In this document: positions 39,692-45,079 of the stretch, one piece after another
Layout of the letters: the number at the start of each line of letters is the position of its first letter
Numbering within the stretch: position 1 is the stretch's first letter
Assembly: GCF_963920485.1 (NCBI RefSeq)
Contig: NZ_OY986431.1
Coordinates: 744,001 to 808,000, forward strand
Direction of reading: 5' to 3'
Length of the DNA stretch: 64,000 nt
From: Cyanobium usitatum str. Tous
GTDB taxonomy: Bacteria > Cyanobacteriota > Cyanobacteriia > PCC-6307 > Cyanobiaceae
Translations under genes and position numbers: made by a program
Notes under the pieces: generated by a model
The model's input: only the letters and a program-made list of their open reading frames with translations
The model's database searches: none
Told to the model about the DNA's origin: nothing

Positions 39692-39785
39692 GGGCGAAGG
39701 CGCCAATTGCGACGAGGCACGAATCGACGGAGCGTAAATGGCCTAGTGGTCTTAATTTCTCGCCAGCACGGAATCGGTGATCGGC

Positions 39786-41168
39786 ATGCGCAAGACCTTC
39801 GTGCTCGACACCAACGTGCTGCTGCACGATCCGGCAGCCCTGACCCGCTTTGAAGACAACAACATCTTGATCCCGATCGAGGTGGTCGAGGAGATCGACC
39901 GCTTTAAGCGGGATCCAGCTGAAAAGGGACGCAATGCCCGCCAGGTATCGCGGCTGCTGGACGCTCTGCGTGCCCATGGCAACTTGGCCGATGGTGTGCC
40001 CAATGGTGAACAGGGCGGCACGCTCAAGGTGGTGTTCTGCCGGGCCGAAACCCTTAGCCAGCTGCCGCCGGAGCTCAAGGGCGGCAGCGGCGACAACAAC
40101 ATCCTGGCGGTGGCCCTAGAGGAGCAGCGCCTGCAGTCGGTGCTGGGTGGCCAGCCGCCGGTGGTGCTCGTTACCAAGGACACCAACCTGCGCATCAAGG
40201 CTGATGCGGTGGGCTTGATCGCCCAGGACTACACCAGCGATCGGGTTGACATCGGCGGCCTATACCCCGGCTTCTGTGAGGTGTGGGTGGATGCGGAGCA
40301 GATGGATCGGGTCAAGCTGCCGCCAGGATTGGCGGTGGAGGGCCTGGTGCTGGAGGCGCCGCTGCAGGCCAACGAGGGCGTGACCCTGATCGATCGGGCC
40401 CAGCCGGCCCACACCCTGCTGGCTCGCTACAACGGCGCCACCGCCAGCCTGCAACCGCTGCAGCGGGCGCCCAAGGCCAAGCTCGGCCGCATCCAGTCCC
40501 GCAACCGGGAGCAGACATTTGCCCTTGATCTGCTGCTGGATCCCAGCATCCAGCTGATAACCCTGGTGGGCAAGGCCGGCACCGGTAAAACCCTGCTCGC
40601 CCTGGCCGCTGGGCTGCACCAGGTGGCCGATGAGCGGATCTACGAGCGTCTGCTGGTGACCCGCCCGGTGATTTCCCTCGGCAAGGAGATCGGCTTTCTG
40701 CCTGGGGATCTGGATGAAAAAATGGGTCCCTGGATGCAACCAATCATCGACAACCTCGACTTTCTGCTCGGCGGCAGTGAGGAGGAGGGGCGGGGTGCTG
40801 CGCGGGCTGGTGGCAGTCACCGCGGGCCGCGCAGCAATTGGACCGACCTCAAGGGCATGGGCCTGCTCGAGGTGGAGGCGATTAGCTACATCCGCGGTCG
40901 TTCGATTCCGCGCCAATTCATGGTGGTGGACGAGGCCCAGAACCTCACCCCCCATGAGGTGAAGACGATCGTGACTCGGGTGGGCGAGGGCACCAAAATT
41001 GTGCTCACCGGGGATCCATACCAGATCGACAATCCCTATGTGGATGCCGAAAGCAATGGCCTCACCTGGCTGGTGGAGCGCTTCAAGGGCCAGCGGCTCG
41101 CCGGCCACGTGACCCTGCTGCGGGGTGAGCGCAGTGAACTGGCCGAGCTGGCCGCCAATTTGCTCTAG
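39786..41168 (+). CDS. PIN-PhoH fusion protein (PhoH-like ATPase with PIN nuclease domain)
   Basis: A 460-residue two-domain protein: the N-terminal PIN nuclease domain (KTFVLDTNVLLHDP, VVEEIDRFKR, VTKDTNLRIKAD) and a C-terminal PhoH ATPase with Walker [50 protein letters not shown] and LTGDPYQID. Such PhoH2-type proteins are RNA helicase/nucleases. The ATG at 39786 is preferred over a GTG at 39777. It is the first gene after the divergent region. Confidence 0.93.
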   Translation: MRKTFVLDTNVLLHDPAALTRFEDNNILIPIEVVEEIDRFKRDPAEKGRNARQVSRLLDALRAHGNLADGVPNGEQGGTLKVVFCRAETLSQLPPELKGGSGDNNILAVALEEQRLQSVLGGQPPVVLVTKDTNLRIKADAVGLIAQDYTSDRVDIGGLYPGFCEVWVDAEQMDRVKLPPGLAVEGLVLEAPLQANEGVTLIDRAQPAHTLLARYNGATASLQPLQRAPKAKLGRIQSRNREQTFALDLLLDPSIQLITLVGKAGTGKTLLALAAGLHQVADERIYERLLVTRPVISLGKEIGFLPGDLDEKMGPWMQPIIDNLDFLLGGSEEEGRGAARAGGSHRGPRSNWTDLKGMGLLEVEAISYIRGRSIPRQFMVVDEAQNLTPHEVKTIVTRVGEGTKIVLTGDPYQIDNPYVDAESNGLTWLVERFKGQRLAGHVTLLRGERSELAELAANLL

Positions 41169-41183: not shown

Positions 41184-42740
41184 TTACTGGGGCTGGAAGA
41201 CGACGTTCCAATCCCGCTTCATATCCACAACTAGCCAGCCCTGCTGGGGAGCCTCTTTTAGGGCTTCTACAAGCTTGCCGGTGCTGGTCGTCTTGGCGTC
41301 GTAGGCGTACTCGCGTTCAGCGTCGGTGTGATGGACGATCAGCCCTAAACTGGGGCGAGGATTATCGATCGTGGTGTACTGCAACATGGCGTGATCGCCA
41401 TCACTGTTGCCACAGCAAATTATAGGTCTGCGGCCGATAAACTGATGGATGCCAACTGGCTTGCCGGCCTTATCGTTTACGAACAAGTAATCAAGGGTTT
41501 TGGTGATTACTGGTTTGCCGTGCCGTAGTTCGAATACGCACCGCGATGTCGATCCAACAACTTGCTCTGGTGGTATGCCGTAAACCTGTTCCACCCAGGC
41601 CCGCATAAAGTCGGCGCCGCCACCTGAAACAATGAAGTTCTTAAAGCCGTTATCGCTTAGGTAGCGAAGGAGCTCCTGCATGGGTTGGTAGGTGAGCTCG
41701 CCATAGGCCTTGCCATAGCGCGGATGACTGGCCGATCTAAACCATGCCTGCACGGCATCTCGAAATTCTTCTACCGTCATGCCTGCATGGGTGATCGCCA
41801 GGATCTGCATCAGACCATCGAAGTGTTCACCTTCCAGGAGTTTTGCAAGATCGCCGTCCAAGGCAGCTTGCACCATGGGTTCTGAGGTAAGGCTCGGCTC
41901 GGTGAGGATGCGCAGCTTCAGTTCGTCGATGGCAAAAGCTGCCTGAAAAGGCAGCGGATTTTCCGGCCAGAGTGTGCCGTCATTGTCATGCACAGCAATG
42001 CGTTCGGCTGGAGGCAGGTATGCGGGTGAGCTTTTATTTGTGACTTTAGCGATGAATGCAAATAAAGCTTGTTTGACCTGCCCTTCATTCCAGGAGGGCA
42101 GCGGATCAGCTTGGCGAGAGAAGTCGTATAGTTTTGTTTGGGCGACACCATAATCACCTATTTGGTAAAGGCTAATGGAGGCTGTTTGGAAGCTAAAGGC
42201 CTCAAATGGCTCTGCTACCAAAGCTTCAACAAAATCACTTGTGCCAATGCCCAGGGTCAGATGGGGCTGATAGTTCGGGCCCGTCTGCGTATCGCCAAAG
42301 TTGGTCACGTAGTCAATAGTCGCCTGGCTGATTGGCTCGGCGTCAAGGCGGGGTGCGAAGGCATCACCTGTGCCGTATTTCACGGCAAATGGTGCGGTGG
42401 CGGCGATAATTTTTTGCTGAAGTTCATGCTGATAGGGAGTCGCCTCGATATGGAATCCCACCAATTTGAGATTCTCGCTGGCTAATTCAAGGTAGCCAGT
42501 GGCTTTGCCTTCAATATTGATCTGCGGCTCACCACGCAGCACGTTGGACACGGCAGCTGCTACTTGGCCCAGGTCTACAGTGTTTATAAATAACTGGAGA
42601 ATGGTGATGTGGGGCGCGTGGTTGGCATCTAGGGGGAAGCTGGCTGGGTAGTTTTCTCGCAGCCGAGCGTTTATCGCCTTTGCCTTCTCAACCGTGGCAG
42701 CATCTGGTTCCAGCAGGACGTTGATTGCAATCAGGGTCAT
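41184..42740 (-). CDS. Fusion of a 2H phosphoesterase domain and a HAD-type phosphatase
   Basis: A 518-residue protein joining two catalytic units. The N-terminal part has the two HxT motifs of the 2H (LigT-like) family, HAPHITILQ (H44, T46) and QPHLTLGIG (H160, T162). The C-terminal part is a HAD hydrolase, with nucleophile DNDGTLWPEN (D252, D254), motif II VSGGGADF (S372) and acidic motif GNSDGDHAML (D447). Each half appears to have its active-site residues. The substrate is unknown; cyclic nucleotide or RNA-end chemistry plus dephosphorylation is one idea. The ATG at 42740 is preceded by AGGA. The gene is less GC-rich than its neighbours, which hints at transfer. Confidence 0.85.
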   Translation of the reverse strand: MTLIAINVLLEPDAATVEKAKAINARLRENYPASFPLDANHAPHITILQLFINTVDLGQVAAAVSNVLRGEPQINIEGKATGYLELASENLKLVGFHIEATPYQHELQQKIIAATAPFAVKYGTGDAFAPRLDAEPISQATIDYVTNFGDTQTGPNYQPHLTLGIGTSDFVEALVAEPFEAFSFQTASISLYQIGDYGVAQTKLYDFSRQADPLPSWNEGQVKQALFAFIAKVTNKSSPAYLPPAERIAVHDNDGTLWPENPLPFQAAFAIDELKLRILTEPSLTSEPMVQAALDGDLAKLLEGEHFDGLMQILAITHAGMTVEEFRDAVQAWFRSASHPRYGKAYGELTYQPMQELLRYLSDNGFKNFIVSGGGADFMRAWVEQVYGIPPEQVVGSTSRCVFELRHGKPVITKTLDYLFVNDKAGKPVGIHQFIGRRPIICCGNSDGDHAMLQYTTIDNPRPSLGLIVHHTDAEREYAYDAKTTSTGKLVEALKEAPQQGWLVVDMKRDWNVVFQPQ

Positions 42741-42786: not shown

Positions 42787-44103
42787 TTAACAATCCAGGC
42801 AAGCGCGGCGCTCAGTGTCGCTGATGTCGCCGCGTTCGCGCTGCCATTGGCGCCGGCGCAGGTTTTCGTAGGCGCGGCAGAAGTCTTCGCCCAGGGCCTG
42901 GCGCAGGGCCAAGTCGGCGTTGAATGCATCGAGGGCCTCGCCGAGGTTGACCGGCAGCCTGCCGCAGCTGCCGGGATCCAGGGGCTTGGCGTAGTTGTCG
43001 TTGTCGCTGCGGGGGCCAGGAGCGAGCTGGCGCTCAATGCCATCGAGCCCAGCCGCCAGGATTGCAGCCTGCAGCAGGTATGGATGGGCGGCGCCATCGG
43101 GGAGGCGCAGCTCTAAGCGCTGGTCGTCGGGGATGCGCACCATGTGGGTGCGGTTGTTACCGGTGTAGCTGATGCCGCCCGGACTCCAGGTGGCACCTGA
43201 GGTGGTGGGCGGGGCAGCGAGGCGCCGGTAGCTGTTCACCGTGGGGTTGCTCAGGCAGCTCAGGGCCGGGGCATGGGCCAGCAGGCCAGCCAGGAAGTGG
43301 TAAGCAAGCGTCGATAGACCGAGCTCGCCGCTGGGATCGTGGAACAGGTTGCGGCCTGCTTGCGAGCTGTCAGCTGTGCCCCACAGGGAGAGGTGGGTGT
43401 GGCAGCCATTGCCTGTGAGGGCGGCGAAGGGTTTGGGCATGAAGCTGGCCCTCAGCCCCTGCTGCTCCGCCAGGGATTTCACCATCACCTTGAAAAAGGC
43501 GTGGCGATCGGCGGTGGTGAGGGCGTTGGCATAGGTCCAGTTGACCTCAAATTGGCCGTTGGCGTCCTCGTGATCGGCCTGATAGGGCCCCCAGCCCAGC
43601 TGCTCCATCGCCTCCAGCAGGGGGCCGATCAGGGGGTAGCGGCGCATTAAGGCCAGTTGGTCGTAACACGGCTTTTCCTGGCTGTCGGCGCTGTCGCCGA
43701 TCCGCTCGCCGCTGGGATCGAGCAGGAAAAACTCAGCTTCCACGCCGCTGCGCAACTCAAATCCCCGCTCAGCTGCCTGCTCCAGTTGGCGCCGCAGCAG
43801 GCGTCGGGGGCACTGCTCCATCGGCTGGCCATTGAGCTGGAGCTCGGCCGCCACCCAGCCCACCTCCGGCTGCCAGGGCAGGGGGGTGAGACTGGCCGCC
43901 GCCGGGATCGCCATCACGTCGCCATCGGCGGGGGAGAGATCCAGCCAGGCCGCAAAGCCAGCGAAGCCCGCCCCATCGCGGGCCATCCCAGCCACCGCCG
44001 AGGCTGGCACGAGTTTGGCCCGCTGGATGCCAAACAGATCGGTGAAGGAGATCAGCAGGAAGCGGAGCTGCAGCTCCTGCATTCGCTGGGCGAGATCAGA
44101 CAT
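42787..44103 (-). CDS. Glutamine synthetase family protein (type III/GlnT-like)
   Basis: A 438-residue enzyme of the glutamine synthetase superfamily. Motifs seen are GVEAEFFLLDP, the nucleotide/metal GNGCHTHLSLW, SNPTVNSYRRL and NNRTHMVRIPDD. It lacks the tail typical of type I GlnA, so it may make gamma-glutamyl amides rather than glutamine. It overlaps the MetX-like gene by 8 nt and is the last gene of the run with the desaturase. Confidence 0.82.
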   Translation of the reverse strand: MSDLAQRMQELQLRFLLISFTDLFGIQRAKLVPASAVAGMARDGAGFAGFAAWLDLSPADGDVMAIPAAASLTPLPWQPEVGWVAAELQLNGQPMEQCPRRLLRRQLEQAAERGFELRSGVEAEFFLLDPSGERIGDSADSQEKPCYDQLALMRRYPLIGPLLEAMEQLGWGPYQADHEDANGQFEVNWTYANALTTADRHAFFKVMVKSLAEQQGLRASFMPKPFAALTGNGCHTHLSLWGTADSSQAGRNLFHDPSGELGLSTLAYHFLAGLLAHAPALSCLSNPTVNSYRRLAAPPTTSGATWSPGGISYTGNNRTHMVRIPDDQRLELRLPDGAAHPYLLQAAILAAGLDGIERQLAPGPRSDNDNYAKPLDPGSCGRLPVNLGEALDAFNADLALRQALGEDFCRAYENLRRRQWQRERGDISDTERRACLDC

Positions 44104-45079
44104 GGGAGGGCTGCAGGAGGAGGGTTTCAACGATGCGGCTCAGCTGCCGCTGCTCGGCAGGGCTGCTGTGGGGGTTGCCCGCCCGGTGGCCGAGCTCCGA
44201 GGGGATCACGTGCAGCTCCGCCCCGGGGATGGCGTCGGCGTCGGCGGCCAGGTCTTCGAGCGGGAAGTAGAGGTCGTGGCTGCCGGCCACCACGGCGGTG
44301 CGGGCGGTGATGCGGCCCAGGCCTGCGGCCAAATCCCCACCGGCGGCCACGTCGTGGGCAAGCCAGGTGTCGAGCATGGCGATCAGATCGCGGGGGTCAT
44401 GGCGTTGGTAGTGGGGCAGCCAGTGCTGCTCCACGTGCTCCTCCACCGGCTCGGCGATGCTGCGGAAAAAGGGCTGGCTGGCGGCCCAGCTGGCGTAGAT
44501 CAGGGAGTAGGTGCGCAGTCCCTGCTCTGGCGGCGCGTTGAAGCCGCTGCCATTCCAGTGGCGATCGGCGGTGAGGGCCTGGCGCAGGCTGAGGCAGAAC
44601 AGGCGGTTGTGGGGCGAGGTGCGGGTGGTGGCGCAGACGCAGCAGATCCGCTCCACGGCCTCCGGGTGATCGACGGCCCACTGGTAGGCCTGCTGGGCCC
44701 CCATCGACCAGCCGTAGATCAGGGGGAGCCGTTCGATGCCGAACACCTCTGCCAGCAATCGGCGCTGGGCGGCGACATTGTCGCGGTGGCTCACCACCCA
44801 GCCTTGTTCGGCCAGGCCCATGGCGCCGTGGCTGGGGCTGCTGGAGGCGCCGTTGCCGAACATGCCAGCAATCACGATGCACCAGCGCTCCGGATCCAGC
44901 ACCGGGCCGGCCAGCCAGGCCAGATCCTCGGGCCGGGCCCCGTAGGAGGTGGGCACCAGGATCAGGTTGGAGTGCTGGGCGTTGAGCTTGCCTATCTGGA
45001 GGTAGGTGAGCTGGGCCTCCGGCAGGGTGTGGCCGCAGGCCAGGGGAAAGTCGCCAAGGCAGTGCTGGCTGGCGCTCAT
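44096..45079 (-). CDS. Alpha/beta-hydrolase of the homoserine O-acetyltransferase (MetX-like) family
   Basis: A 327-residue hydrolase-fold protein. The nucleophile elbow is YGWSMGAQQAYQWAVDHP; classical MetX has GGSMGGMQ, so this is a divergent member. The conserved NLILVPTSYGARPED start, AGSHDLYFPLED and the C-terminal SELGHRAGN supply the acid and His. Activity may be homoserine acetyl transfer or a related ester reaction. Its start overlaps the desaturase stop (ATGA) and its 3' end overlaps the GS-like gene. Confidence 0.8.
   Translation of the reverse strand: MSASQHCLGDFPLACGHTLPEAQLTYLQIGKLNAQHSNLILVPTSYGARPEDLAWLAGPVLDPERWCIVIAGMFGNGASSSPSHGAMGLAEQGWVVSHRDNVAAQRRLLAEVFGIERLPLIYGWSMGAQQAYQWAVDHPEAVERICCVCATTRTSPHNRLFCLSLRQALTADRHWNGSGFNAPPEQGLRTYSLIYASWAASQPFFRSIAEPVEEHVEQHWLPHYQRHDPRDLIAMLDTWLAHDVAAGGDLAAGLGRITARTAVVAGSHDLYFPLEDLAADADAIPGAELHVIPSELGHRAGNPHSSPAEQRQLSRIVETLLLQPSHV

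Follow-up and report, generated by a model that had tools for sequence, protein, structure and literature searches.

A 2H phosphoesterase and a phosphatase joined in one chain are already known from the TULA/STS (UBASH3) proteins of animals, whose phosphatase is of the histidine phosphatase family, has protein tyrosine phosphatase activity and is accompanied by UBA and SH3 domains. Two-step chemistry on 2',3'-cyclic nucleotides, the same overall chemistry as that proposed below, is carried out by the CpdB-type periplasmic 2',3'-cyclic phosphodiesterase/3'-nucleotidases, whose metallophosphoesterase fold is unrelated to the domains considered here. According to an excerpt of its description, the 2H domain of TULA-2, which shares its chain with the histidine phosphatase, acts on 2',3'-cyclic NADP and on one cyclic-phosphate RNA (PMC10253181). 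A bacterial 2H enzyme, XanP of Xanthomonas, hydrolyses the cyclic sugar phosphodiester xanthosan to a phosphomonoester for nutrition, and the excerpted account of it describes no fused phosphatase (PMC12807533). It is likened to the present protein by its description, as a 2H enzyme of a small cyclic phosphodiester. Among HAD enzymes, PchP works in the periplasm on phosphorylcholine, again according to part of the source (PMC3170909).

The gene described here lies in a window of 64,000 nucleotides, the whole stretch of DNA analysed, and occurs as a single copy in the single-contig 2.66-Mb genome of a picocyanobacterium, of whose contig the window covers positions 744001-808000. Read from its ATG (41184..42740, minus strand), it encodes 518 residues followed by a stop and contains no internal stop; an alternative in-frame GTG start upstream would add nine residues. 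A psbA-like ORF, recognised by eye, is located nearby. The nearest named proteins are those of Synechococcus sp. CS-1330 and Cyanobium usitatum (90-94%). The initial annotation had read the gene as a 2H phosphoesterase and a HAD phosphatase in one protein, and the intact frame, the Pfam matches and the motifs bear this out. UBA, SH3 and histidine phosphatase domains are all absent from a Pfam search at E<=10, which returns 2H and HAD families only. A literature search for papers joining 2H or LigT with haloacid dehalogenase by fusion found none, in a body of literature sparse in subscription papers.

The two halves of the protein

The N-terminal half (residues 1-209, 42114..42740, minus strand) belongs to the 2H phosphoesterase superfamily, on its LigT/CPDase side. 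Both HxT motifs noted in the initial annotation are present, H44-I-T46 (42603..42611) and H160-L-T162 (42255..42263): H44, T46 and H160 are invariant among 13 aligned 2H sequences, down to 30% identity, and T162 is conserved in at least 90% of them, being replaced by Ser in L006. The whole protein scores 23.6 bits against PF02834 (LigT_PEase, cut-off 23.3) and 26.9 bits against PF13563, just below the cut-off of 27, and the 2H half alone reaches 30.6 bits with the latter. An AF2 model of this half alone, made with 10 alignment rows (pTM 0.68, mean pLDDT 68), has as its best fold match the Arabidopsis Appr>p cyclic phosphodiesterase 1jh6 (Z 11.2 over 154 residues, rmsd 3.2), with E. coli LigT and related proteins within one Z unit of it and Usb1 lower. 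This domain differs from the LigT/CPDase side in being fused to a phosphatase. It also has no credible solved relative in a sequence profile search (best E 0.045), and neither the whole protein nor its halves match any NCBIfam model at E<=10, the LigT/ThpR RNA 2',3'-cyclic phosphodiesterase equivalog included.

Some 2H proteins, those of the AKAP18 type, are ligand binders, and proteins of this type are among the fold matches. A 2H half that merely binds or regulates, with catalysis by the HAD half only, would agree with this likeness and with dN/dS values against three congeners of 0.27-0.35 for the 2H half, slightly above the 0.23 of the HAD half. We regard it as very unlikely: the catalytic histidine pair is unchanged in all 13 aligned sequences, and the 2H domain also occurs as a stand-alone protein with a signal-peptide-like start (L132, L133). 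Purifying selection acts on the two halves alike.

The C-terminal half (residues 210-518, 41187..42113, minus strand) belongs to the HAD superfamily, as indicated by its motifs, profile score (PF12710, 35.7 bits on the whole protein against a cut-off of 27) and fold. All four motifs announced by the initial annotation can be recognised: motif I, D252-N-D254-G-T256 (41973..41987); motif II, S372 (41625..41627); motif III, which we take to be the near-invariant K427 (41460..41462); and motif IV, N445-S-D-G-D449 (41394..41408), which begins with Asn and not Asp. The motif names are likewise our assignment, whereas conservation was computed: D252, D254, S372, K427, N445 and D449 are each at least 90% conserved in an alignment of 30 sequences, which misplaced the 2H portions of L008 and L030 and served for HAD conservation only. 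Cys takes the place of T256 in L004, L006 and L008.

The closest described structure is PDB 4ovy from Planctomyces limnophilus, which matches the HAD half over nearly its full length by phmmer (E 7.8e-98), has the same form of motif IV and is also the best Foldseek match of this half in the full model (E 2e-29). It is followed by 4gxt, phosphorylcholine phosphatase and phosphoserine phosphatases. PchP itself (4as2) is matched by Foldseek at E 3e-7 with 17% identity and gives no phmmer match at E<=1. The 518-residue full-chain model is poor in its 2H half, and the placement of one site relative to the other in it is unreliable. Unlike the present protein, the 4ovy chain and most of its relatives carry no 2H domain, and many of them adjoin sulfatases. 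Searches of the literature collection described above found no paper on 4ovy or on the Planctomyces limnophilus haloacid dehalogenase.

Two Rhodopirellula members of the 4ovy-type family, L012 (a stop-to-stop ORF of 468 residues) and L011 (559 residues), are extended at the C-terminus by about 120 residues. The idea that these extensions are decayed 2H domains was discarded, as they give no 2H blastp match and look unlike 2H by eye.

Fused and split forms and the insertion site

The in-frame fusion is found in six distinct genomes. Besides the present one, these are two congeners (G001/L002, in which the copies are identical, and G005/L031), both 94% identical to the fusion, and three metagenome-assembled genomes (L004, L005 and L006; 71-73% identity), labelled Chloroflexi, Deltaproteobacteria and Synechococcaceae; taxonomic labels of such assemblies may be wrong. 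In C. usitatum Tous, another congener (L003, the same genome as G012; L003:6001-7554), an in-frame stop interrupts the fusion gene early in the HAD half, and because of it the gene may be dispensable there. The parts on either side of that stop are otherwise still conserved.

In three other metagenome-assembled genomes, labelled archaeal (L007), Synechococcus (L008) and Aestuariivirga (L009), the halves are separate genes with a short overlap, 2H first and HAD second, and the 2H gene of L009 is itself frameshifted. The overlap falls at the domain junction of the present protein (residues 205-215, 42096..42128, minus strand). Between matching anchors, the junction stretch measures 30 bases in the present gene, against 28 in L007 and 31 in L008, so the fused form differs very little from the split one. 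The initial annotation had allowed that the halves might be separate genes in close relatives, joined here by a frame error. Separate genes do exist, and the small difference at the junction could suggest an artefact of frame or assembly made from two overlapping genes. Such an artefact is nevertheless scarcely credible: the fused frame recurs in six distinct genomes, one of them a single-contig assembly, and is conserved over 71-94% identity. Its independent recurrence, together with dN/dS values of 0.23-0.35, argues against an assembly error and, as far as assemblies show, rules it out for the present genome, in which the fused form is natural.

The fusion gene lies between a glutamine-synthetase-like (glnA-like) gene upstream (42787..44130, minus strand, PF00120), which is on the same strand and ends 46 bases before it, and a convergent PIN-PhoH gene downstream (39777..41168, plus strand, PF02562 and PF13638). 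The neighbouring PhoH was used to query 16 genomes of the genus, of which 11 matched at E<=1e-100 and five gave no match at this cut-off. The fusion adjoins phoH in four of the 11 (the present genome, G001, G005 and G012). In six (G004, G006, G007, G010, G014 and G015) the glnA-like gene is directly next to phoH, and no 2H-HAD gene was found in the flanks of about 1.5 kb around these empty sites; the remaining one (G011) has neither the fusion nor the glnA-like gene within the stretch examined around phoH. The fusion gene is thus a clean insertion between the glnA-like gene and phoH, absent from six congeners. Two of these (G004 and G015) possess a stand-alone HAD, at 74%, elsewhere in the genome.

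The gene is less GC-rich than its surroundings, as the initial annotation had remarked: 53.2% GC and 58% GC3, against 59-71% and 76-89% in seven neighbouring genes. Relatives outside the genus, at 65-78% in their best segment, are of cyanobacterial label (L006, L008, L010) or carry labels of other phyla (L004, L005, L007, L009, L030). Such a spread fits horizontal acquisition of the fusion gene and names no donor. A phage origin was considered and rejected: seven pattern matches in viral contigs could not be confirmed, and no 2H relative was found in phage records.

Recurrent pairing of the 2H family with phosphatases

In all, 23 distinct loci carry this 2H family, many of which were obtained with a query containing HAD. 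In 11 of them the domain is fused to a phosphatase: the present gene, L031, L002, L003 (with its stop), L004, L005 and L006, together with L030 from Roseiconus (HAD-2H order), two from Pirellulaceae, L131 (2H-HAD; recorded with L135) and L134 (HAD-2H; recorded with L138), and L124 from a plasmid of Ensifer sp. PDNC004 (L124:6119-7630), in which the partner is a PAP2-family phosphatase. Six loci have adjacent separate genes: L007, L008 and L009, and, with HAD then 2H as neighbours on plasmids, L047 and L128 of Streptomyces (the HAD of L128 being truncated) and L048 of Rhodococcus. The pairing is looser in two loci. In R. jaguaris (L125) the order is sulfatase, HAD, two other genes and 2H, with HAD and 2H about 1.9 kb apart; in L139 a 2H remnant of 71 residues, 74.6% identical to the present 2H, lies about 4 kb from HAD on the opposite strand. 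The remaining four, from Rhodococcus (L126, L127) and Pirellulaceae (L132, L133), have neither a HAD nor a PAP2 match (blastp at E<=1e-4) closer than about 7 kb, in a screen that covered these two families only and in which L133 is bounded on one side by a contig end 2.9 kb away.

Queries containing 2H only give a fairer count. They produced 13 loci, of which four are fused to a phosphatase, four adjacent to one, one near and four without. These came from seven plasmid records (the same seven with a second query), one of 289 alphaproteobacterial genomes and five of 119 Pirellulaceae genomes, the last set being centred on Roseiconus and so including L030 by construction; a 2H-only profile found none in 296 Actinomycetota genomes, a result that lacks a positive control and is uninformative. 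Matches to the HAD itself came from 17 of 149 genomes of planctomycetes, 7 of 289 of Alphaproteobacteria, 9 of 296 of actinobacteria and 11 of 291 of cyanobacteria, counts that include the centre genome and a few short or weak matches. Since HAD is present in so few genomes, it is unlikely to lie beside a rare 2H gene by chance.

On a quick tree of the HAD domains, from which four long-branch sequences had been removed before labels were counted, possession of a 2H partner requires six changes, at least four of them forced by the starred branches, compared with a mean of 13.2 when labels are shuffled (none of 500 shuffles was as low as six). A 2H neighbour was not detected for 68 of the 82 labelled HADs, many of which were examined over only about 1.5 kb of flank, and L038 was scored as lacking 2H though the L139 remnant is about 4 kb away; the HADs of L131 and L134, 49-51% identical to the present one, are not in this tree. 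This preponderance of HADs without a partner indicates that the HAD family has a function of its own. In a quick tree of 21 2H domains, the three C-terminal ones, two behind HAD and one behind PAP2, group together with a support of 94, which may be read as exchange of the phosphatase in front.

The 2H family is therefore repeatedly joined to, or placed beside, phosphatases, which are of two unrelated folds. The occurrence of both orders and of two phosphatase folds makes a good comparative case for a functional link. What is new compared with TULA/STS is that this 2H family pairs recurrently with a phosphatase, in apparently cytosolic and apparently exported forms, in both orders, as plasmid neighbours and with PAP2.

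Two further observations concern individual loci. The PAP2-2H gene of L124 is flanked by two sulfatases, in a stretch without annotated features. L139 (G097), from another cyanobacterial family, is a decayed-looking island with HAD, sulfatase fragments, a fragment of a formylglycine-generating enzyme (FGE) and the 2H remnant.

Genomic surroundings, export and possible function

Members of the 4ovy-type HAD family (L011-L029, L036, L039 and others) often have a sulfatase neighbour and, in several loci, FGE-like genes too. Of the 19 stand-alone HAD loci (L011-L029), 15 have a sulfatase-like ORF no more than about 6 kb away, and several also have FGE-like genes nearby. Among the 2H loci, sulfatases occur within about 6 kb of L005, L006, L007, L124, L125, L131 and L134, and none was found in the stretches examined around the present gene or L002, L003, L004, L008, L009, L030, L047 and L048. 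Such proximity means less in planctomycetes, given that at least 76 sulfatase matches were scored in Roseiconus, against 1-13 in the 16 further genomes examined. Proximity was recorded for seven of 16 genomes against 0.19 expected, a comparison whose probability was set aside: it relied on hand-entered observed values, and four of the 16 genomes were chosen after their sulfatase neighbours were already known. In addition, DUF1254/DUF1214-type proteins follow the 2H/HAD module in three unrelated genomes (L005:3568-5043, L006:8324-9868 and L048:9621-11150); no paper was found on DUF1254 together with DUF1214.

Signal-like starts were judged from the hydropathy of the first 45 residues, with start codons picked by eye and no signal-peptide predictor. 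The copies tested from the present clade and from actinobacteria have values of 0.35-1.76 and no signal-like pattern, and the present protein is probably cytosolic. L030, L131, L134, L132, L133 and L125 have values of 2.1-2.3 and a hydrophobic stretch preceded by basic residues, and L124 shows the same pattern at 1.78; these seven proteins are apparently exported. By score L124 overlaps L008 (1.76, no basic residue ahead), so the division rests on the pattern.

The recurrent partnership of 2H and phosphatase in unrelated bacteria suggests that the halves act consecutively on one phosphate compound. The present protein would then be a bifunctional cytosolic salvage hydrolase, a reading that we consider fairly probable. 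In a first step the 2H domain, via H44/T46 and H160/T162, would act on a cyclic phosphodiester, opening it, or on a small diester, cleaving it, to yield a phosphomonoester; in a second, the HAD domain, with D252 as nucleophile, would remove the phosphate, so that inorganic phosphate and an alcohol or a nucleoside are released. This order of events had been proposed in the initial annotation and gains support from pairing in both orders, from overlapping or adjacent genes, from occurrence in two apparent compartments and from PAP2 taking the place of HAD. The substrate class is most likely a small cyclic organophosphate; candidates are 2',3'-cyclic nucleotides in the lead, and cyclic sugar, glycerol or inositol phosphate next.

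The resemblance in fold to CPDase, LigT and Usb1, and the lack of a signal-peptide-like start (by hydropathy) in the present clade, would also agree with a role in RNA-end or tRNA repair or decay, with the 2H half opening 2',3'-cyclic phosphate RNA ends and the HAD half removing the 2'- or 3'-phosphate. Such a role seems improbable given the signal-peptide-like starts of L030, L131, L134, L124, L125, L132 and L133, the sulfatase neighbours and the absence of an NCBIfam match. Because apparently exported versions have sulfatase neighbours, small organophosphate salvage is at least as likely as RNA-end metabolism.

As a counterpoint to the two-step reading, the fusion may be opportunistic. Promiscuity is possible in 2H enzymes as well as in HAD enzymes, and their co-occurrence is consequently no proof of a common substrate. 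The halves might instead be two independent salvage activities on different organophosphates, part of a broad ester-scavenging set with sulfatases and joined for co-regulation. The sulfatase-like ORFs near 15 of the 19 stand-alone HAD loci and near some 2H loci, the FGE-like genes near several of the former and the usual lack of a detected 2H neighbour beside HAD all point in this direction. This explanation is rather unlikely, as the fusion partner of 2H is a phosphatase in all 11 fused loci, even where PAP2 replaces HAD, and no 2H-sulfatase fusion occurs among the 23 2H loci.

Returning to consecutive action on one compound, a broader proposal, possible if doubtful, is that the pairs represent a repeatedly reinvented two-enzyme pathway. 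The orphan 2H family would be dedicated to one small cyclic organophosphate, not RNA, usually together with HAD or PAP2, and would be exported, together with sulfatases, in planctomycetes and rhizobia, and cytosolic, in one chain, in picocyanobacteria. If true, such a dedicated pathway points to an unrecognised environmental phosphorus compound. The fusion gives a testable function to both families, the orphan 2H and the 4ovy-type HAD, and indicates which product the HAD phosphatase should receive. Should the substrate be a common cyclic organophosphate, the gene would represent a horizontally spreading phosphorus-salvage trait in picocyanobacteria.
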